Origin: Schaalia canis
Lineage (GTDB): Bacteria > Actinomycetota > Actinomycetes > Actinomycetales > Actinomycetaceae
Length of the DNA: 64,000 nucleotides
Assembly (NCBI RefSeq): GCF_003858455.1
Contig: NZ_RQZF01000003.1
Coordinates: forward strand, 248,001 to 312,000
Direction of reading: 5' to 3'
Within the stretch, counting starts at the first letter, position 1. Each line of letters begins with the position of its first letter. Both the position numbers and the translations under genes were made by a program. Under the pieces are notes generated by a model that saw only the letters and a list, made by a program, of their open reading frames with translations, had not been told where the DNA came from and did not search any database. Below are positions 2,662 to 52,666 of the stretch, in pieces.

Positions 2662-5523
2662 TTAACCCCTCTCTATCTTTTCCCCATAAAGGGATTGTGT
2701 AGCAAGACTGTTATTTCCTGCGGGATGCAACCGACGCATAGCGGCCGCACCAAAGGCAAGAGTCAGAATGCATGCGCCAGCCATGAGGAAACTGTCGGCT
2801 CCCATACCACCGGTGAGTGGCAGCAGGGGCAGGGTGACGGTCTCATTCGTGATTCGACCAAAGTTTGCCTGCAGGGCGTTTTCTCCAATTGTTTGCGTCC
2901 GCACTGCGGTGTCACGCCGATAACCCGGTGGGGCGGCAGTCTCTTCAAGACTAAGGTTTTGCCACTTCAATCCTTCCAGGCGGAATCGGCCCGGCTGCGG
3001 ATCACGATCGCCACCGTTTTGGCACGCACCCGCCTTGACACAGTCCTGCACGGCAATGACACCCTGCTGGCCTGTCGTGACCGACCATTCAGAGCCAGAC
3101 AAATACGTTCCCGAGGCGTCGGTCTTCTCCCATACGACAGAGCCCGGCAATTGCTTATTGGTGACAACGCATGTGAGTTTTTCACCCGGCTGCAGAGCAC
3201 GCACATTCAGACCGCTACCTGTTCCTGTGACAGGTTGACGCTTGTTGCTCGTGCATCGAATGGAGGCCGAATAGCTGGCAGGCCTGGCGGCCTCGGTAAT
3301 ACGGACGTCCTGCCGCGTGGCCGAATTCGGGAAGCTCACTGTCCAAAGCTCTGGCACCGTACCGGACGCGTTTGACACCTGGTGCTTGCCGAACCACGGA
3401 TCGTTGCGGTCTTTCAAGGGGGATAAGGTGCCGTGCAGATTGCTCTCCAGGTCAACGGCCAGAGTCCACCCTGAGGCGTCGGCCACCTTCGCACCAGCAG
3501 GATCGCGAACCTCTTTTTTCACTTCAATCTGCGCAACAAGCTTCTTATTGTCAATCCTCCCGAAGGAGAGCTGTTGCTTATCCGCCGTCAGTGTTTGAGT
3601 GAAAGTTTGTGTTGTCCCCTCGTAGCCCGTTGGCGGGGTAGTCTCTCCTAGCGTGTATTGACCGAGATAGAGGCCGTCGACCTTGAAGTATCCAGCGCGA
3701 GGGTCAATGTCGTTATCCCCTGCACGGCACTGACTGGCATTTGCTGCCACGCAATCTCGCACGGTTTGAGAACGCCCCGGGGCAAGCGGGCCGTCGAGAG
3801 TCCAGACTGAGCCCCCCAGGCGCACGTTCCGATCGTCGGCGTCCCCCTTTTCCCACACGAGGCTTCCATTTGCCGGAGTATTAGTGAAAGTACAGATCAC
3901 CTCAGCACTGGCAGTGTTCGGGATAGTGACACTGCCGCTTCGGCCTTCACCTGCGGCGATTGGGCCGGATTTGTCCTCACATCGCCACGTTGAGCGATAT
4001 GCGCTGGCGGCGGAGGGGCTATTGCCTGCCATATTCTCGCTAAAGGTATAGCGCGTACCGGTGCGGACTGGGAAGACACCGATCGTTTCTGCCTGCAACC
4101 CGTCACGGTTACCACTCGTCGTCACCGACGGAATCATCGTTTGAGTTCCACCTGCACCGTTCTTCATCAGATTCAAGACAAATTGATCGTTCGGTGCTCG
4201 CCGAGACTCGACATTCTTCCGCAGACGGATTGTTGCCGGGGAAGCACAAGAGGCAAGGTCACGGCTCTCACTCAAACCACTCTTGAAGACACCGAGATTC
4301 TCATAGTCAATGGGATCATGCCGGTTAACTGTTGTTGTATCTCCGAGGTAGAGGCGCCCGTATGCGTCAAAAGCAATTCCATTGACGCTGCCCTCCGTCC
4401 TGATAGGGGCGGTTGATGAAGCGGGTATATTGCCGCCATTAGCTCCCGCAAGTGCGTCTGCCGTGATTGAGTGAATACTCGTTTCTTTGTCGGATGAGCC
4501 ATAGAAGCTACTACCACTACGCACAACGAAGAGGTTACCCTCCTCATCGAAAGCCATATCACCATTGGCTGCACTGTTATAGGGTTCCCCTGCTGCAAGC
4601 TGCCTACCAGTATTGAAAGAACCTAAGTCCCGCGTAGTACGGCTACGAGGATCAAAACGATAGAGACGGAATCGAAGTTGTCGAACAGTGTTGACATCCC
4701 CCGGCGCATCGTAAGTACCGAAGTAGAACATTCCTGTGCTGAGCTGTACTGCACCTGCAATATAGGGAACATTGAGGCCACTTTGCGTACGCGAGGTTTG
4801 CCGGACCCAACGGTTAGCACCACGGTCGTATTTATAGATGGTATAGTCCCACTGGCCAAGTTGAGCATAGGGGTTATAAAAGTATTCGTAATGGCGAATT
4901 GCGTAGATATCTTCAGCGTTCGCCCCAATACCAAGGGCATTCACACTAGTTCGAAGATCACCTTCTTGCGGGTACGGGTAATCAGTTCTTGAGCGCCAAT
5001 CCTCGGAAGGAACTTGTGCAAACTCGCGGGTTCTGCCTGAGGAAAGTATTTCAACGAGAGCGCCATCCTGACGGATGGAGAATACCGAGCCGTTAAGACA
5101 ACTCGATGCAGTAAGCGCTGCCGCCCGGCGGAATCGCCCTCTGGGTTTTGGCGCAGGCGCCTCGGATTGAGGGGTGTTCACCGATTCGGCGGGAGCAGAT
5201 TTCTCAGCGCTCCCATTATCTACTTGAGTGCCATCACCAACGGCTGCCTCTTCCTTGAGAGTCACTTCAGGAGTCGAGGGGGCTTTCTGTGCTGTTAATG
5301 CGTCGTTTTCCTCTTCCAAAACACTAGAGGTTGACGACTGCGCCGCATCTACGTCACTCTGCCCCGATTCCGCCGCCTGGACCGAATCGGCGTAGGTCGG
5401 GACAGATACCACAAACAAGATGCTCGCAACAAAGGCAAGAACGCTGAACAGGACGACGGTGAGGGGCAGCAACCCCCCATTCCGAGCATTCATATGTCCC
5501 GCATTGCGGAGCATTTCGCGCAT
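2662..5523 (-). CDS. pilus tip adhesin-like surface protein, LPLTG-anchored
   Basis: Large wall-anchored protein (953 aa from the start chosen) encoded immediately upstream of a shaft pilin, the usual position of a fimbrial tip subunit. Visible parts: signal peptide with a long hydrophobic core ending near TYADS; a Glu/Ser/Ala-rich spacer to about residue 130; a 300-residue head with repeated aromatic blades (IYAIRHY, GMFYFG, GNLFVV, GRLYLG) resembling a beta-propeller, which is inference; then two or more SpaA/CnaB-like domains, each opening VWEK and closing with an E-box (GETTPPTGY, EETAAPPGY); and an LPLTG motif, hydrophobic helix and basic tail. The start at 5523 is preferred over 5538 because GAGGG lies 8 nt upstream of it. 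Cysteine-rich loops recur in the SpaA-like domains. The host ligand is unknown. Confidence 0.8.
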   Translation of the reverse strand: MREMLRNAGHMNARNGGLLPLTVVLFSVLAFVASILFVVSVPTYADSVQAAESGQSDVDAAQSSTSSVLEEENDALTAQKAPSTPEVTLKEEAAVGDGTQVDNGSAEKSAPAESVNTPQSEAPAPKPRGRFRRAAALTASSCLNGSVFSIRQDGALVEILSSGRTREFAQVPSEDWRSRTDYPYPQEGDLRTSVNALGIGANAEDIYAIRHYEYFYNPYAQLGQWDYTIYKYDRGANRWVRQTSRTQSGLNVPYIAGAVQLSTGMFYFGTYDAPGDVNTVRQLRFRLYRFDPRSRTTRDLGSFNTGRQLAAGEPYNSAANGDMAFDEEGNLFVVRSGSSFYGSSDKETSIHSITADALAGANGGNIPASSTAPIRTEGSVNGIAFDAYGRLYLGDTTTVNRHDPIDYENLGVFKSGLSESRDLASCASPATIRLRKNVESRRAPNDQFVLNLMKNGAGGTQTMIPSVTTSGNRDGLQAETIGVFPVRTGTRYTFSENMAGNSPSAASAYRSTWRCEDKSGPIAAGEGRSGSVTIPNTASAEVICTFTNTPANGSLVWEKGDADDRNVRLGGSVWTLDGPLAPGRSQTVRDCVAANASQCRAGDNDIDPRAGYFKVDGLYLGQYTLGETTPPTGYEGTTQTFTQTLTADKQQLSFGRIDNKKLVAQIEVKKEVRDPAGAKVADASGWTLAVDLESNLHGTLSPLKDRNDPWFGKHQVSNASGTVPELWTVSFPNSATRQDVRITEAARPASYSASIRCTSNKRQPVTGTGSGLNVRALQPGEKLTCVVTNKQLPGSVVWEKTDASGTYLSGSEWSVTTGQQGVIAVQDCVKAGACQNGGDRDPQPGRFRLEGLKWQNLSLEETAAPPGYRRDTAVRTQTIGENALQANFGRITNETVTLPLLPLTGGMGADSFLMAGACILTLAFGAAAMRRLHPAGNNSLATQSLYGEKIERG

Positions 5524-9780: not shown

Positions 9781-10251
9781 TCACCAGCGGTAGTGAGCGA
9801 ACGCGCGGTTCGACTCGGCCATCTTGTGCATGTCCTCGCGGCGCTTCACAGCGGCACCAAGACCGTTGGAAGCGTCGAGGATTTCGTTCGCCAGACGCTC
9901 GGTCATGGTCTTCTCGCGACGCTGGCGCGAGAAGTCAACGAGCCAACGCAGGGCGAGGGTGGTCGCGCGGGAGGCGCGGACCTCAACCGGCACCTGGTAG
10001 GTGGCGCCACCAACGCGGCGGGAACGCACCTCAAGGGCGGGACGGATGTTGTCCAGAGCGCGCTTGAGCACGGTTACGGGATCCTGGTCAGTGCGCTCAC
10101 GCACGGATTCCAGAGCCGAGTACACAATGCGTTCAGCAACAGTCTTCTTACCGTCGAGGAGCACGCGGTTCACGAGCTGGGTGACGACCTTGGAACCGTA
10201 TACGGGATCGTCAACGAGGGGACGCTTAGGAGCGGGGCCCTTACGAGGCAT
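9781..10251 (-). CDS. rpsG: 30S ribosomal protein S7
   Basis: 156-residue primary 16S rRNA-binding protein that nucleates the 30S head. It starts [12 protein letters not shown] and ends FAHYRW, the normal actinobacterial form and length. Its ATG overlaps the rpsL stop in the sequence TAATG, so translation of the two genes is probably coupled. In enterobacteria S7 represses the str operon; no evidence for or against that can be read here. Confidence 0.98.
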
Positions 10252-10625
10252 TACTTCTTCTCCTTCTTAGCGCCGTAACGGGAACGAGCCTGCTGACGGC
10301 CGCGGACACCCTGGGTGTCGAGCGAGCCGCGGATGATGCGGTAACGCACACCGGGGAGGTCCTTCACACGACCGCCACGGACGAGCACGATCGAGTGCTC
10401 CTGCAGGTTGTGGCCTTCACCGGGGATGTAAGCGGTGACTTCGATGCCAGAGGAGAGGCGAACACGAGCGACCTTACGGAGGGCCGAGTTCGGCTTCTTA
10501 GGGGTGGTGGTGTACACGCGGGTGCACACGCCGCGACGCTGGGGAGAGCCCTTCAGCGCAGGGGTCTTGACCTTGCTGCGCTTGGAGCTGCGTCCCTTGC
10601 GAACGAGCTGCTGAATAGTAGGCAC
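10251..10625 (-). CDS. rpsL: 30S ribosomal protein S12
   Basis: 124-residue decoding-site protein. It starts at GTG (10625) with GGAG just upstream and reads [12 protein letters not shown]. The streptomycin-relevant loops [11 protein letters not shown] and GGRVKDLPG have the wild-type residues (Lys at the position equivalent to 43 and Lys in VKDLPG), so no streptomycin-resistance substitution is visible. First gene of the str operon. Its leader of about 270 nt contains a terminator-like hairpin (10678-10705) downstream of a good promoter (10903-10932). Confidence 0.98.
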
Positions 10626-10932: not shown

Positions 10933-11029
10933 TGCAAAGGCTTGCTTACAGGGCGTATCCTCCGCCACACTTGCTCATGTCCGACGCTCCCCCGTCCGCA
11001 CCTCTCCTTCCTCATTCCCTCACTTCCCC

Positions 11030-11102
11030 GTCGAAACCTTACTTTGCGCACGAAAATGGAGGTCCGGGACTTATAGTTTCGTGCACAACACGAGATTTCG
11101 AC
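11030..11102. repeat. family-1 palindromic repeat, left copy
   Basis: 73 bp: arms 11030-11055 and 11077-11102 (26 nt each, 20 of 26 complementary by my count) around a 21-nt centre. It begins GTCGAAACCTTACTTTG. It lies 56 bp beyond the stop of the DUF559-like gene at 11159. Aligned against the right copy (12287-12359), about 60/73 bases match in inverted orientation and 55/73 in direct orientation, because the asymmetric centre is also inverted. Immediately outside is GTGGTGGGCGG (11107-11117), a sequence that also follows the right copy (12368-12378). Confidence 0.85.
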
Positions 11103-11158
11103 GAGGGTGGTGGGCGGCACGAGCACTCACAGCACGCCGACCTCGCAAAGCACCTCCC

Positions 11159-12181
11159 CTAGCGTCGCCCAGCACGGGCAAGTGCCGAACGAATACGACC
11201 TTCCAGCGCCTGAGATACTGCAAGCTCTCCCCAGGCAACTCGCACAACGATCCACCCGGCTCGCTCGATCGCCTCACGGCGATACTCCAACGCCTCGCGT
11301 GCCTCGTGTACCTCCTGCAGCGTCACGCCAAACTTTGCGCGCCCATCAGGCTCGACGGCAACCTGGAACTCCGGGAAGGCGAAGTCAAGGAAGTACCGAG
11401 CTCCCGCGACGCGCATCTCATACTGCGTGACATACTCGTCCAGCCCTGCCGTGCACAGCAGCCATGCCATGCGAGCTTCAAAAACCGAATCCATTGGATG
11501 CGCCATGTGTCGACTCGCTGTGAAGTAACGGGCGCGACCCCGCGCACGGCGGGGCAGTTCCCAGCACTCCTCCAGGCAGACCTCCTGCAGCTGGGCCAAA
11601 CGGGAACGCGTTGCCTCAAGATCCCAACGGTCCGTTCTCACCACTGCCTGCGTAGCCATCATGAACGCGACGAATCCGCACTCGTCAGGCAAGAGCCGCA
11701 CGCTTTGCACTCCCGCAGTCAGAGGGTCGACACACGGGACACCTGCTTGCAGCTGCGTCGTTTGACGAGCACGCCCAAGGATCGTCAGCTTGAGGGGCAC
11801 CGCGGGGATGTGGTTGCTGCGCGGTGTCGTTACATGAGTAAAGAGGTCCTTGTTGTAGGGATTGGCGTGATCGACCTGCAGGTATATCGGCAGCCGCTCT
11901 GCCTGCCAGTGGTCGATGCCATGCGTGAGGAGCGCTGTCGGCCCCGCGATAAGGCTTCCGTCGTGCCGCTCTTGAACAGCCACTGCTCTGGCAAGTTGCA
12001 CGATCTGGCGCTCTTGATAGACGTTCTCAGCGGCAGCGAAGGCCCGGGTGTGCAACGCGTAGCCGCGCATGATGCGCACCACCTGGCCTTGCGAGGGTTC
12101 GGCCTGCAAGGCCGAGCGTCGGCGACGCCCGGTGCGCACGAGATTTCTTACAACAACCTCCATCAGATCGGTGTGTTTCAT
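11159..12181 (-). CDS. AbiEi-like/DUF559-type protein with PD-(D/E)XK-like C-terminus
   Basis: 340-residue protein of uncertain function. The N-terminal part resembles AbiEi-family antitoxin/regulator proteins: a short helical region, a wing-like VVRIMRGYAL near residue 40, and SLIAGPTALLTHGI near 80. The C-terminal 100 residues resemble DUF559/Vsr-type nuclease folds: a strand with FLDFAFPEF, then AVEPDGRAKFG, giving the pattern D-x(9)-E-x-D-G-x-x-K, followed by a helix and GWIVVRVAW. The putative catalytic acids and lysine are intact. ATG start with GAGGA 5 nt upstream. It has no partner toxin gene and stands alone between palindromic repeats. It shares architecture with 39869-40990, though sequence identity looks low. 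It could be a nuclease, a regulator or an orphan antitoxin. Confidence 0.75.
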   Translation of the reverse strand: MKHTDLMEVVVRNLVRTGRRRRSALQAEPSQGQVVRIMRGYALHTRAFAAAENVYQERQIVQLARAVAVQERHDGSLIAGPTALLTHGIDHWQAERLPIYLQVDHANPYNKDLFTHVTTPRSNHIPAVPLKLTILGRARQTTQLQAGVPCVDPLTAGVQSVRLLPDECGFVAFMMATQAVVRTDRWDLEATRSRLAQLQEVCLEECWELPRRARGRARYFTASRHMAHPMDSVFEARMAWLLCTAGLDEYVTQYEMRVAGARYFLDFAFPEFQVAVEPDGRAKFGVTLQEVHEAREALEYRREAIERAGWIVVRVAWGELAVSQALEGRIRSALARAGRR

Positions 12182-12286
12182 GGCCGTCCTCTTTGATTGC
12201 CTGCCTTTCTACTCTTTCTATTTGAGCGAGCAGAGCGCCTTCATCAAAGCGATGCGACAGATCTGTGGATAACTCTTCTTCCCCCC

Positions 12287-12359
12287 GTCGAAACCTTACT
12301 TTGTGCACGAAATTATAGGTTCCGGACCCCCCATTTCGTACACAAAGTAAGGTTTCGAC
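12287..12359. repeat. family-1 palindromic repeat, right copy
   Basis: 73 bp with a nearly perfect inverted repeat: arms 12287-12312 and 12334-12359 (25 of 26 complementary) around a 21-nt centre. It lies 105 bp upstream of the DUF559-like start, with its outer end touching the U-tract of the rpoC terminator. The high symmetry suggests a recent or functionally maintained structure. Same family as 11030-11102. Confidence 0.88.
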
Positions 12360-12365
12360 GAAAAA

Positions 12366-12404
12366 CAGTGGTGGGCGGTGCGCCATGCGCACCGCCCACC
12401 ACTG
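12366..12404 (-). terminator. rpoC terminator
   Basis: 18-bp perfect stem (12366-12383 with 12387-12404, 3-nt loop) just after the rpoC stop. On the minus strand it is followed by TTTTT. Strong Rho-independent terminator for the rplJ-rplL-rpoB-rpoC block. Confidence 0.9.
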
Positions 12405-12418
12405 CAGATCAATCAGCC

Positions 12419-15400
12419 TCAGCCACGGAAAGGCATTCCGAAGTCAATGCTGCCCAGGGCATTGAGGAAGTCCTCGGACACCTCGCCGTCCTGGAAGTCC
12501 ATCTCTGAGTAGTTGGAGTTCGCCATCGCCTCGGCGGTGGGCTCCACCAGCACGCGGTTGTAGCGTGCCAGACCCGTACCAGCCGGGATGAGCTTACCGA
12601 GGATGACGTTCTCCTTCAGGCCAAGCAGCGAGTCTGACTTGCCGTTCATCGCAGCCTCGGTGAGGACCTTCGTGGTCTCCTGGAAGGATGCGGCAGACAG
12701 CCACGAGTCGGTAGCCAGCGAGGCCTTGGTGATACCCATGAGCATCTGACGTGCCGAAGCGGGCTGGCCACCCTCGGCAGCCACCTTACGGTTCTGCGTC
12801 AGGTAGGCCATGCGGTCAACCAGCTCACCAGGCATGAAGTTGGTGTCGCCGGGCTCAAGGATGGTGACCTTGCGCAGCATCTGGCGAACGATCACTTCGA
12901 TGTGCTTGGAGTGGATACCCACGCCCTGATCGCGGTAGACCTTCTGCACCTCGTCCACAAGCTGCTTCTGAGCCACATTGCGGCCCATGATGCGCAGAAC
13001 TTCCTTGGGATCGAGCTGGCCTTCGGTCAGCGGAGTGCCAGCCTCAATGTGCTCGCCCTCAGAAACCAGCAGCTTCTGGCGGCGCGAGACCTCAATGACC
13101 AGATCTTCCTTCGCATCATCACGGGTAATCACCACGCGACGGATTGCAGGATCATCATCGTCAATGTGGACGCGGCCGGCGGCCTCGTTCATCTTCGCCT
13201 CAGCCTTAGGTGTACGGGCTTCGAAGAGCTCTTGCACACGAGGCAGACCCTGGGTGATGTCAGCAGCCGAAGCAGCACCACCGGTGTGGAAGGTACGCAT
13301 CGTCAGCTGCGTGCCAGGCTCACCAATGGACTGAGCAGCAATAATGCCAACAGCCTCACCGATATCAACCTGCTTACCGGTAGCCAGAGAGCGGCCGTAG
13401 CAGGTGGCACAGGTACCAACCTGAGATTCACAGGTCAGGACCGAACGGCAGTGAACCTCAGCAACGCCTGCAGCCACAAGCTCAGCCAGAAGCTGATCGC
13501 CCAGGTCAGTGCCTGCGGTGGCAACAACGGTGCCATCCTCAGCCACAGCATCACGCGACAGAGTACGAGCGTAAGCCGTGGTTTCGTTGGTCTCCAACGC
13601 CATCCAGGTGCCGTCCTCGGTCTTTTCAGCAATCTGAATCTTCAGCCCACCGCGGGTACCACAGTCGGCCTCGCGGACAATGACATCCTGCGACACGTCA
13701 ACCAGACGACGGGTCAGATAACCCGACTCTGCCGTACGCAAAGCGGTATCAGCCAGACCCTTACGGGCGCCGTGGGTTGCGATGAAGTACTCCAGAACCG
13801 TCAGGCCTTCACGGTAGTTGGCCTTAATCGGGCGCTCAATGAGCTTCTGCTTCGGGTCAGACACCAGGCCACGCATACCAGCAAGCTGCTGGACCTGCGA
13901 CCAGTTACCACGAGCACCGGAGGACACCATGCGGAACACGGTGTTGCGCTCATCGAAGTTCGCCTTCATATCGGCTGCAACCTCTTCGGTGCACTTCAGC
14001 CACAGGTCAACGAGCTCGTCGTAGCGAGACTGCTCGACGATCAGACCCATGTCGAACTGCTCCTGAATCTCGGCAGCGCGAGCCTCGTAACGAGCCAGAA
14101 TCTCTTCCTTGCGGGGAGAGGCCTGAATGTCAGAGAAGGCAATGGTGATACCAGACCAGGTCGACCAGTGGAAACCGGCAGACTTCAGAGCATCAAGGCA
14201 ATCCGCAGCCAAAACATTCGGGTAACGCTCAGTCAGGTTATTGACGATCGTCCCCAACTGCTTCTTGCCGACAACCTCATTGACGTAGGGGTAGTCGATC
14301 GGCAGAGTCTCGTTGAAGATGGTGCGGCCCAGCGAGGTAACCAGGGTGATCGGATCACCCTCAGTCCACCCCTCGGGAGCTTCCCAGCCTTCAGGAGCAA
14401 CAATGTCAGTGAAGCGGATGCGAGCCTTCGCATTCAGGTGCAGATCACCATTATCGAAAGCCATGCGAGCCTCAGCAGCGGAGGTGAAGGAAGGAATCAC
14501 CTCGTTGCCCTCAGCGTCAACCTCAACCTCAACCATCGGATCAGGCTCAGAGGTCAGGTGGAACAGACCAATGATCATGTCCTGCGAGGGCATTGCCACG
14601 GGGCGGCCATCGGAAGGCTTGAGAATGTTGTTGGTCGAAAGCATGAGGATACGAGCCTCAGCCTGCGCCTCAGCACCCAGGGGCAGGTGAACTGCCATCT
14701 GGTCGCCGTCGAAGTCAGCGTTGAAAGCAGCACAGGCCAGCGGGTGAAGCTGGATGGCCTTACCTTCAATAAGCTGAGGCTCGAAGGCCTGGATGCCCAA
14801 ACGGTGCAGCGTAGGTGCGCGGTTGAGCAACACCGGGTGCTCACGAATGACATCGTCGAGGACGTCCCACACCTCAGGACGCTGGCGCTCAACCTTACGC
14901 TTAGCAGCCTTGACGTTCTGGGCGAAGTTCTTCTCAACGAGGCGCTTCATCACGAAAGGCTTGAAGAGCTCCAGAGCCATCTGCTTAGGCAGACCACACT
15001 GGTGGAGCTTGAGCTGCGGGCCAACAACGATAACCGAACGGCCCGAGTAGTCAACGCGCTTACCCAGCAGGTTCTGACGGAAACGACCCTGCTTACCCTT
15101 GAGCATGTCCGAAATGGACTTCAGGGGACGGTTACCGGGACCCGCAACAGGGCGACCACGGCGTCCATTATCGAAGAGGGCGTCCACAGACTCCTGGAGC
15201 ATACGCTTTTCGTTGTTGACGATGATCTCAGGAGCACCCAGCTCAAGCAGGCGCTTGAGGCGGGTGTTGCGGTTGATGACACGACGGTACAGGTCGTTGA
15301 GGTCGGAGGTCGCAAAGCGGCCACCATCAAGCTGCACCATGGGGCGCAGATCCGGCGGGATCACCGGAATGGTGGTCAGAACCATCGACTCAGGGGCGTT

Positions 15401-16318
15401 ACCCGTCGCAACGAACGCGTTAATGACCTTGAGGCGCTTGATAGCGCGGGTCTTACGCGGGCCCGTTTCAGAGGCGATCACACGGCGGAGGTTTTCCACC
15501 TCGCCTTCAATGTCGAAGTTCTGCAGGCGCTTCTGAATGGCGGCAGCGCCCATGTCACCCTTGAAGTAGGTGCCGTAGCGCAGCATCATCGAACGGTAGA
15601 GGCGCTCATCACCTTCAAGGTCACCAACCTTAAGGTCCTTGAAACGCTCCCACACAGCCTCCAGATGCTCCATGTCAGCTTCGAAACGGCGACGAATCTG
15701 AGCCATTTCACGCTCAGCAGTCTTACGTTCCTTCTCGCGCTCAGCAGGCTTAGCACCCTCAGCCTCAAGCTGGGCCACGGTCGCCTCGGCACGCTCAGCG
15801 CGCGCATTCAGAGCAGTATTCATCTGGTTCTCAAGGTGGCCCTTTTCCACCTCAAGCTCACCACGCAGATCGGCAAGGTCCTCATCACGGCCCTTTTCAT
15901 CCACCTCAGTGATCATGTAGGCAGCGAAGTAAATGACCTTTTCCAGGTCCTTCGGAGCCAGGTTCAGAACGTAGCCCAGACGGGAGGGCACGCCCTTGAA
16001 GTACCAGATGTGGGTGACGGGGGCAGCCAGGTCAATGTGACCCATGCGCTCACGGCGGACCTTCGAGCGGGTCACCTCCACGCCACACTTTTCACAGACG
16101 ATGCCCTTGTAACGGACACGCTTGTACTTACCGCAAGCACACTCCCAGTCGCGGGTGGGACCGAAAATCTGCTCGCCGAAAAGGCCGTCACGCTCAGGCT
16201 TGAGCGTACGGTAGTTAATGGTTTCAGGCTTCTTGACTTCACCATGAGACCAGCCTGCGATGTCCTCAGAGGTCGCAAGGGTGATCCGGAGGGAGTCGAA
16301 CGTCTTGGCGTCCAGCAA
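12419..16318 (-). CDS. rpoC: RNA polymerase subunit beta-prime
   Basis: 1,299-residue catalytic subunit of RNA polymerase. Full length: N-terminal zinc-binding region (CACGKY and CEKCG), the active-site loop [12 protein letters not shown] that binds Mg2+ through its three aspartates, and the second zinc site ([15 protein letters not shown]). It ends [10 protein letters not shown]. The start is TTG at 16318, preceded by AAGGAG at 7-nt spacing and reading (M)[10 protein letters not shown], as in the family. Follows rpoB by 15 bp. A strong terminator follows the stop. Confidence 0.98.
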
Positions 16319-39619: not shown

Positions 39620-39647
39620 TTCGCTTTCTTCTTCTCTTTGCGCGTCA

Positions 39648-39708
39648 TGTACTGCTTAGCGTTTTGCGTACGTGGTGTGCCGCGTACATGAGGCGCCAAC
39701 ATATACAC
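39648..39708. repeat. family-2 palindromic repeat, copy A
   Basis: 61 bp beginning TGTACTGCTTAGCG and containing TGCGTACGTGGTGTGCCGCG. Ungapped alignment to copy B (41006-41066) gives about 45/61 matches in the same orientation. It lies 28 bp beyond the terminator at 39619 and 160 bp before the DUF559-like gene. Confidence 0.75.
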
Positions 39709-39868
39709 AAAGCGCTAGAGCGTACACATCGAGGCGGCACACTATCTTCCCTTTTCCACAGTTGAAACGCCTCGGAGAGGTTATCCACACTCGCTTGCGA
39801 GCGGATTAGCGCCTTTGGTCAATATCGCGCACCCTCAAGGAAGGAACGCATCAGAAAAGAGGAGCGCA

Positions 39869-40990
39869 ATGGCACAGGCACAGGCACAGGCACACAGCAT
39901 CCCTCAAAAAGGAACCACCAGACAAGCCAACAATCCCCCGCAAACCGAGCAAACAATCCTCAACATTGCCCATCACATGCTGACAACCGCACATGGCGCC
40001 CACACAAAACACCGGAAGGAACTCAGATCTGGGCACTACCTTCCCATCAGGAGAGGTTTCTACCTCAACCGGAACTCTCTTCCAGCGGAGCACAGCCTGT
40101 GGCAGCATCAGCGGACGGTTGCTATTGCACGCCATATTGCCCACTATGCAACCCACCGCCACATTGACGCCTTCACTCACCAGTCTGCCCTGCTACTCCG
40201 TGGCCTCCCGATCCTGCGCAGACCGGGGACAATCCACGAACGCAGACACGCATCCAGGGGCAGACACCCCATCATTTACCCTCCGGTAAAGCTCGATGGG
40301 CAGATGCTTTGTCCGTCCGCTCCCGTCCTCATTCATGCAGGATCATTCCTAGGCGACCACGTGGAGATTCTGGGCGGGCTACCCGTGACAAGCCTGCGCG
40401 AAACCGCCAGGGACATTCTTGCCTACAGCACTCCGGTAGAAGCCGTCGCAGAGGTGTCCATGCTGATGCGCCACGCCTGCGGTTATAACCGATGGCGGAA
40501 GGAAGAATCCGACACACACGCATCGGCAGTTCGGAGCCTCATAGAAGAAGCAATCGACGAAGTTAGCTCACCGTGGGGAAAACAGCGGGCACATGAACTG
40601 CTCTCTCTTTGTGATCCCTCCTGTGAATCCATCGCCGAAAGCTACTTCAACTGGTTCCTTCACGCCTTTAACGCCCGCCCATGGCAGACGCAGGTTGAGA
40701 TCACGGTCGATGGAGCGCTGTATGTCGCCGATTTCTGTTTCCCTGAGCAAAGGGTTCTTATCGAGGTTGAAGGGTTCAGCAAGCTAGGTGCACAGCAGGA
40801 CGAGATCGGGAAAAACCTCAGCGCTTTGATGCGGCGCGACAATATCTTGACCTCACAGGGCTGGAACCTTATCCATCTACCCGCACGACAGATGTATGTC
40901 GATCCAATGGAACTCCATGTTCATCTTCGTCAAGTGATTGGGGGCGTCTTTACACCGAAGCCGCCTCACCGGTGGCTCCTCGACAGTTAA
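39869..40990 (+). CDS. AbiEi-like/DUF559-type protein with PD-(D/E)XK-like C-terminus
   Basis: 373-residue protein of uncertain function. I chose the ATG at 39869 (GAGGAG 5 nt upstream) over a TTG at 39815. The N-terminus starts with a short Ala-Gln repeat (MAQAQAQAH). It then shows the AbiEi-like layout: a wing YLPIRRGFYLNR, a helix, and FTHQSALLLRGLPIL. The C-terminal part has the DUF559/Vsr-like nuclease pattern YVADFCFPEQ ... IEVEGFSKLG, which is D-x(9)-E-x-E-G-x-x-K, then a helix and GWNLIHLPARQM. The same residues are spaced identically in 11159-12181. No toxin partner is adjacent. It is flanked by family-2 repeats 160 bp upstream and 15 bp downstream. Could be a nuclease, regulator or orphan antitoxin. 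Confidence 0.75.
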   Translation: MAQAQAQAHSIPQKGTTRQANNPPQTEQTILNIAHHMLTTAHGAHTKHRKELRSGHYLPIRRGFYLNRNSLPAEHSLWQHQRTVAIARHIAHYATHRHIDAFTHQSALLLRGLPILRRPGTIHERRHASRGRHPIIYPPVKLDGQMLCPSAPVLIHAGSFLGDHVEILGGLPVTSLRETARDILAYSTPVEAVAEVSMLMRHACGYNRWRKEESDTHASAVRSLIEEAIDEVSSPWGKQRAHELLSLCDPSCESIAESYFNWFLHAFNARPWQTQVEITVDGALYVADFCFPEQRVLIEVEGFSKLGAQQDEIGKNLSALMRRDNILTSQGWNLIHLPARQMYVDPMELHVHLRQVIGGVFTPKPPHRWLLDS

Positions 40991-41005
40991 CACCCCGGCA
41001 CTTCA

Positions 41006-41066
41006 TGTACAGGTTGACGCCCTGCGTACATGGTGTACCGCGCACAAAAGGCGCTAACCCGTACAC
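41006..41066. repeat. family-2 palindromic repeat, copy B
   Basis: 61 bp. The outer arms TGTACAGGTTGACGCC and GGCGCTAACCCGTACA are imperfect inverted repeats, with a smaller nested palindrome (TGCGTACA ... TGTACCGCGCA). It fills the 90-bp space between the convergent DUF559-like gene and htpX, so it might also serve as their shared terminator. Confidence 0.82.
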
Positions 41067-41080
41067 AAGTCAGACAGACG

Positions 41081-52605: not shown

Positions 52606-52666
52606 TGTACACCTTGGCGCATGATGTACATGGTGCACCACGTACATCATGCATTAACCCGTACAT
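52606..52666. repeat. family-2 palindromic repeat, copy C (solitary)
   Basis: 61 bp aligning without gaps to copy B (about 44/61). It has a perfect 11-bp inner inverted repeat GCATGATGTAC/GTACATCATGC whose bases differ from those in A and B, suggesting that pairing is conserved rather than sequence. No DUF559-like gene is near. It lies 62 bp beyond the terminator at 52729-52760. Confidence 0.78.

Follow-up and report, generated by a model that had tools for sequence, protein, structure and literature searches.

Predicted Vsr-fold nuclease genes bracketed by lineage-specific repeat arrays in Schaalia and related actinobacteria

Described systems and the locus between rpoC and rpsL

The closest described counterparts of the locus analyzed here are the REPtrons, in which REP, BIME or REPIN repeats accompany a RAYT gene. 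The relevant sections of PMC3733652 describe RAYTs as tyrosine transposases with an HUH motif that recognize single-stranded REP DNA and cleave a GTAG motif; according to the same sections, REP families have until now been linked only to tyrosine transposases, and some of them to no enzyme at all. The likeness to our locus and its relatives lies in a gene flanked by palindromic repeats, relatives of which are dispersed between genes. The difference is that here the protein is a predicted Vsr-fold PD-(D/E)XK protein, the arrays are longer and they often contain sites spaced by 19 nt. PMC3733652 also describes, in its part on TIRtrons, a gene for a TIRYT, again a tyrosine transposase, between long terminal inverted repeats that constitute a repeat family in some species. 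At our loci, too, long repeats enclose a gene and belong to a repeat family, but of 76 flank pairs only 11 are inverted, the other 65 being direct (pairs scoring at least 22 in a wider search of 700-nt flanks, less one tandem copy in genome G009), and the enzyme is unrelated.

Other described proteins are comparable in part. AbiEi, from type IV toxin-antitoxin systems, binds inverted repeats in its own promoter, as stated in the part of PMC7319586 that concerns it, and may share with the present family a DNA-binding winged helix at the N-terminus; here, in contrast, repeats lie on both sides of the gene and elsewhere, and a nuclease domain is fused. No AbiEii nucleotidyltransferase toxin gene is present at the focal locus, where a single gene lies between the arrays and the neighbors are rpoC and rpsL. 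The Vsr/EDxHD homing endonucleases such as I-Bth0305I, and the Vsr repair nuclease, appear from structural modeling to have a similar nuclease fold, but they are a homing enzyme and a mismatch nuclease, unlike our reading of the present family, and we know of no enzyme of the I-Bth0305I or Vsr type that owns dispersed repeat arrays. The MTES_1575-type Vsr-REase is linked to the family by Pfam matches (see below). In the section of PMC3710099 devoted to it, MTES_1575 is a Vsr REase joined to wHTH domains within a single large HEPN-containing protein; in this context it differs from our proteins, and that section mentions no repeats. In the open-access literature that we searched, we found no published link between such nucleases and flanking or dispersed repeats.

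The window that we analyzed is a stretch of 64,000 nucleotides from Schaalia canis. According to its list of open reading frames, a single gene of 340 aa lies between two inverted 79-nt palindromic repeats in the rpoC-rpsL interval:

11159..12181, minus strand: focal gene, an ORF of 340 aa with a predicted winged-helix-like N-terminus and a predicted C-terminal Vsr-fold PD-(D/E)XK nuclease domain, DUF559/MTES_1575-like
11026..11104, no strand assigned: left array, a palindromic 79-nt repeat downstream of the focal gene, with CGAAA at 11032 and 11051 and TTTCG at 11077 and 11096
12283..12361, no strand assigned: right array, a palindromic 79-nt repeat upstream of the focal gene, with CGAAA at 12289 and 12308 and TTTCG at 12334 and 12353
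12366..12404, minus strand: rpoC terminator stem adjoining the right array, an 18-bp perfect inverted repeat
12419..16318, minus strand: rpoC, an ORF, upstream neighbor of the focal gene
10251..10625, minus strand: rpsL, an ORF, first gene of the str operon and downstream neighbor of the focal gene

A preliminary description of this DNA had reported two inverted hairpin repeats of 73 bp around a single gene, the right one adjoining the T-tract of the rpoC terminator, in a segment between rpoC and the str operon. We confirmed this arrangement, with a repeat length of 79 nt. The right copy ends at 12361 and is followed by AAAA, which is the T-tract of the minus-strand transcript, and then by the stem (12366-12383 and 12387-12404), just past the end of rpoC. 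The two copies are 82% complementary as an inverted pair and 77% identical as a direct pair; they align in both ways because each copy is itself palindromic, and their inverted orientation is set by an asymmetric loop. The right copy has 28-nt arms that are 96% complementary, and in the left copy 21 of 27 arm positions pair when counted by eye. Folded as single-stranded DNA, the right and left copies give z values of -12.85 and -4.28, respectively, and in each case none of 200 shuffles was equally stable. Both copies carry CGAAA at array positions 7 and 26 and TTTCG at 52 and 71. The 19-nt spacing of these sites is kept in all four focal arms, and in the diverged left copy the arms differ in the spacer only: all six arm mismatches fall between the two CGAAA sites.

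As in a REPtron, the flanking repeats are dispersed in the same genome, with one further copy only for the focal member. A blastn search of the whole genome (76 contigs) placed the focal repeat at three sites, the two gene ends and a solo copy on contig C46. There was no family member in the 15 kb around the solo copy, and by eye a stem-loop follows this copy too. Compared with the right copy, it has matching differences in both arms (by eye), implying that self-complementarity has been retained. At E 0.001, the focal repeat was found in 0 of the 34 other genomes of the genus; relatives therefore do not all carry the same gene and repeats at this position, whereas vertical inheritance of both in all of them would have spoken against the cassette first proposed. 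What distinguishes the locus from a REPtron is that no HUH/Y1 transposase of the IS200/IS605 type lies between the repeats. GTAG is also absent from the hairpin foot in the focal arrays, where the sequence reads CGTC. The system would be REP/RAYT-like in its working, yet it lacks the HUH transposase that defines a RAYT system and, at the focal locus, the toxin partner that defines AbiE.

The foot of the focal palindrome, CGTC...GACG, resembles the CGTC-tagged REPs that are said, in the pertinent part of PMC3733652, to have no dedicated transposase. Because this motif occurs at both ends in 1 of 76 arrays, the focal one only, the resemblance may be due to chance.

A second family member lies in the window, with flank repeats of its own:

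39977..40990, plus strand: second family member, 337 aa, with flank repeats unrelated to the focal ones
39645..39710, no strand assigned: its upstream repeat, 66 nt, 76% identical to the downstream copy (SW score 26)
41003..41068, no strand assigned: its downstream repeat, with nine further matches in the genome, mostly partial and weak (E 1.7e-7 to 0.3)

These two repeats are rather diverged from each other, and the upstream one was not recovered by blastn with the downstream copy. One further match of the downstream repeat falls within the window, at 52626-52665.

The predicted nuclease family

The focal protein had initially been labeled DUF559/AbiEi-like, with an intact PD-(D/E)XK-like C-terminus. 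The Pfam family DUF559 (PF04480) matched it with 13.9 bits, below the gathering threshold of 20.6, and MTES_1575 matched it with 15 bits, below the cut-off of 38.2. Among 48 family members, DUF559 matched 35 and MTES_1575 matched 33 at E <= 0.1, and the RAP domain had matches in 16; no Y1 transposase was among the Pfam families matched by these 48. In the alignment of the 48 members, E235, Q253, D266, E277, K283 and R301, which are located in and near the nuclease domain, are invariant, as are R65 and G309.

The AlphaFold model of the focal protein (pLDDT 91.3, pTM 0.90) was compared with solved structures by Foldseek. Over the nuclease domain only, it matched 3r3p_B, the catalytic domain of the homing endonuclease I-Bth0305I, and 1vsr, which is Vsr, both with a probability of 1.00 and with E of 0.07 and 0.10. 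No Foldseek match of the focal model reached E 0.001 or better, and the top two, ahead of 3r3p and 1vsr, were mitoribosomal proteins with poor overlap (TM 0.17-0.24). A sequence-profile search of the PDB with the focal protein gave two weak matches, the better of which (E 0.13), an 'endonuclease-like protein', fell on the nuclease domain. The modeled fold and the conserved residues lead us to predict that the C-terminus is a Vsr-fold PD-(D/E)XK nuclease with E235, D266, E277 and K283 as its conserved catalytic residues, and in this respect the initial reading of an intact PD-(D/E)XK-like domain held.

The modeled N-terminus of the focal protein begins helix-helix-strand-strand, which would fit an AbiEi-type winged helix. 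The Pfam model AbiEi_4 gave weak matches in 2 of the 48 members, the focal protein not among them, and single PADLOC AbiEi models gave weak matches in at most 6 of the 48 (best E 1.1e-5), again without the focal protein. Searches of the focal protein against NCBIfam and PADLOC returned no families, and tblastn against the plasmid and phage collections returned no match. It is possible, from the modeled fold, that the family proteins have an N-terminal winged-helix DNA-binding part.

Identity between the focal protein and the 47 other aligned members is only 19-29%, and the focal protein lies on a long branch of the tree (117 of the 119 members, two being too short to include), implying that it is not a close ortholog of the others. 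The family itself is widespread. At least one family match was found in 33 of 35 genomes of the genus (E 1e-10), and 182 of 297 genomes of the order had a match. Named relatives with family loci are Schaalia and Actinomyces species (seven loci in a contig search), and the members occupy many different genomic places.

Shared flank repeats and array families

A repeat common to both flanks was found for 75 of 118 family genes in the genus (the 119 members less one without 300 nt on both sides) and for 2 of 129 neighboring ORFs (Fisher 1e-29, a value that treats related species and clades as independent samples, which they are not). When the left flank of one member was paired with the right flank of another from the same genome, a shared repeat was found in 1 of 380 pairings. 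An earlier control had given a similar picture, with a shared flank repeat in 75 of 119 members and in 13 of 600 random segments. The other 43 of the 118 members had no shared flank repeat by the same test. Outside the genus, 20 of 26 loci shared one; for these loci there is no control set of their own, and each genome contributed one locus, the top-scoring one in the search from a longer list, which favors closer relatives.

Members with open genes and no detectable flank repeats form groups (L031, L038, L141, L037, L035 and others). Such members may be host-adapted, or may use arrays elsewhere.

The repeat that a gene carries goes with the protein that it encodes. Among pairs of members from different genomes, both with flank repeats, the arrays matched in 34 of 35 pairs with at least 80% protein identity, in 53 of 76 at 60-80%, in 1 of 45 at 45-60% and in 0 of 2233 below 45%. 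The protein tree agrees with the array types. We conclude that the repeat type is specific to the protein lineage.

The arrays also occur away from the genes. For the first array family, 10 of the 35 genomes had 24-62 matches each; G009 and G018 had two each, and the remaining 23 had none. Members of the cognate clade were detected in nine of the ten array-rich genomes but in no genome of the remaining 25; in G009 and G018 a sister clade is present. The exception is G019, which has 54 matches of this array family and in which the cognate clade was not detected, as judged from the match list at E 1e-10 and the loci examined there. For the second array family, the clade is confined to G006 and G007, in which there were 50 and 58 matches, respectively; elsewhere there were two matches (one place) in G017, which is without the clade, and none in 32 genomes. 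These matches count both strands, so that the places are about half as many, and the counts may be low in some genomes, where not all candidates from the first pass were scored. Genome G042, from another bacterial family of the order, has seven full-length array places and two short ones, with the gene between two of them; among 14 genomes searched, this array type was found at one place in the congener G104 and in none of the other 12. The array families tested thus have several to many copies. With the exception of G019 and a few single copies, they are tied to protein lineages rather than being widespread with no link to the gene, and across the family as a whole the shared flanks, the lineage-tied arrays and their dispersal lend good support to the analogy that had been drawn with REP/RAYT systems, an analogy in which a DUF559-type protein takes the place of the transposase.

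Sixty array records, representing 55 places, were located relative to genes: 50 fall in gaps between predicted ORFs, and the other 10 overlap with a naive ORF. A general association of arrays with terminators was rejected. Terminator-like stems stood beside 3 of 53 records, compared with 10 of 318 control positions (p=0.41); the 53 leave out seven records that lie beside a family gene or belong to the G019 pair, and five places count twice.

The aligned flank repeats have a median length of 101 nt (range 50-505). A 7-mer repeated at a distance of 12-44 nt was present in 46 of 76 arrays, compared with 310 of 1520 shuffled arrays. The commonest spacing was 19 nt, in 25 arrays (8 at 19 nt among the shuffles), and 32 arrays had a spacing of 18-21 nt; related arrays are taken as separate in these counts. 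In the clearest array families, a block of two or three sites in forward orientation precedes one of two or three in inverted orientation (by eye), and the focal repeat fits this plan, as CGAAA-19-CGAAA followed by TTTCG-19-TTTCG. We also asked how many arrays are self-complementary. This was clear in 38 of 76, for which at most 1 of 100 shuffles was as good, and the hairpin, which the preliminary description had taken as characteristic of the ends, was therefore rejected as a common feature of the family arrays. That 19-nt-spaced sites are also common points to multi-site binding of duplex DNA. Similarly, the position of the left focal copy's 6 of 27 arm differences, all between sites, favors recognition of spaced sites in the duplex over recognition of a hairpin. 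Judging from these sequence patterns, we infer that the proteins would recognize spaced sites in duplex DNA rather than a hairpin as such.

The rpoC-rpsL interval, a possible mechanism and its alternatives

Measured in 29 of 35 genomes, the distance between rpoC and rpsL ranged from 391 to 8545 bp (there are no values for G032, G022, G031, G027, G030 and G010). A different family member lies in this interval in 12 of 28 other genomes, always in the opposite orientation to the focal gene. In G032, the closest relative by rpsL (98%), about 11.4 kb filled by other genes separate rpoC from rpsL, and neither the focal gene nor the focal repeat is present there. The differing content and length across genomes imply that the interval is a variable region. 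Flanked by two conserved operons and ranging from 391 bp to more than 11 kb in the genus, it has the appearance of a hotspot for gene insertion.

Gene-present and single-array states coexist at this site. The interval contains array, gene and array in G021 and G009, and a single array with matching outer flanks in G018 and G015. By eye, the single array of G018 continues rightward like the left array of G021 and then like the right one, and that of G015 is closer in sequence to the right array of G021. The G018 state would fit removal of the gene by recombination between two arrays; change in the opposite direction is the alternative.

Arrays can also be stable. One solo array occupies the same place in eight genomes, with an extra unit in two, implying that arrays can be old and vertically inherited. 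The same interval holds an array of another family in G017 and none in the stretch aligned for G001, G007, G006 and G003. These differences imply that arrays can change by units, and that one interval can be taken by different families. The mobility of the cassette, as initially proposed, did not gain support: no recent insertion or target duplication was found among the genomes of this analysis, and the solo array that we followed has kept its place.

Overall, the focal segment is probably one of a large family of repeat-bracketed nuclease genes that resemble REP/RAYT systems, with a predicted Vsr-fold nuclease replacing the HUH transposase. In such a system, several subunits of the protein would bind to the protein's own array, each occupying one site; in many lineages these sites form two convergent blocks with a spacing of 19 bp, or about two helical turns. 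Occupation of the upstream array could set the gene's own expression, and array binding could also position the nuclease on DNA. A nick or cut at the array might then provoke repair or recombination between copies, which would spread, homogenize and maintain the arrays, and the same recombination could lead to gain or loss of the gene between two arrays. Several observations sit uneasily with this explanation: the 43 of 118 members without a shared repeat, the arrays of G019 and G017, genomes in which the cognate clade was not detected, the solo array that keeps its place in eight genomes, the presence of only three copies of the focal repeat, the Foldseek E values above 0.001, the weak AbiEi matches in a few members only, and the clear self-complementarity of no more than 38 of 76 arrays.

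The most serious alternative, although we consider it unlikely, is that the protein is a regulator, either an AbiEi-type DNA-binding repressor or a nucleoid protein, with arrays that are operators kept by selection at many genomic positions and a nuclease fold that is a relic or acts on foreign DNA only. Arrays do stand upstream of the gene, and AbiEi and Rv2827c bind inverted repeats in their own promoters, according to the relevant part of PMC7319586. The location of most array records between predicted ORFs (50/60) is also in keeping with operators, as is the solo array kept at the same place in eight genomes, in which the sites are mostly preserved although the immediately preceding DNA is not the same (by eye). 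A regulator, however, leaves unexplained the matching downstream array, the states with and without the gene, and the invariance of the E, D, E and K residues of the nuclease.

It is still less likely that these are homing endonuclease genes, which would cut array-like sites that lack the gene and be copied into them by recombination, the arrays being homing sites. The catalytic domain of I-Bth0305I is among the similar solved folds, one site occurs both with the gene between arrays and with an array alone, and members are found at many different places, all of which would be in keeping with homing. But a homing gene normally splits its own target, and here a complete array stands on each side of the gene. 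Moreover, many arrays persist in genomes that hold the enzyme, where a plain homing enzyme should keep cutting them. That the genes merely land in intergenic regions already rich in unrelated dispersed repeats, as the general variability of the rpoC-rpsL interval might suggest, is hardly credible, given that different members of one genome have different repeats (1/380 cross matches), that neighboring ORFs are without such repeats (2/129) and that the repeat type tracks the protein lineage.

The preferred explanation, a REP/RAYT-like family with a nuclease of another fold, has a broader form that we regard as evenly balanced between true and false. The family would then be a second, independently evolved genome-resident repeat system, in which Vsr-fold nucleases with a fused DNA-binding part own, read and spread private arrays of sites, these being often spaced by 19 nt and arranged as two convergent blocks. 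In the same reading, and with the same even balance, several lineages with hardly any shared repeats would coexist in one genome, the system would extend through several families of one actinobacterial order, and the specificity of each protein could be read from its flanks. If a nuclease of a quite different fold drives an equivalent repeat population, the trait arose at least twice; many genes annotated only as 'DUF559' or 'endonuclease domain' would also gain a testable role. With its presumed sites beside each gene, the genus would offer about 75 natural protein-site pairs for studying DNA recognition.

Three individual loci add detail to the behavior of the arrays. At L199 (G019:C1), two arrays of the same family lie 1.3 kb apart, near 110973-111060 and 112343-112430, with gene-like sequence between them in which no family nuclease is detectable; this insert is possibly replaced cargo. 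At L100, the rpoC-rpsL interval of G007, two arrays of the GCATTGGGG family, at interval positions 233-305 and 3656-3728, bracket about 3.4 kb without a family member. Finally, at L075 (G009:C2:807000-818400) there is a tandem duplication of the family gene, the array and the first ~50 bp of rpsL; because the duplicated unit includes the start of rpsL, an rpsL fragment lies between the two copies.
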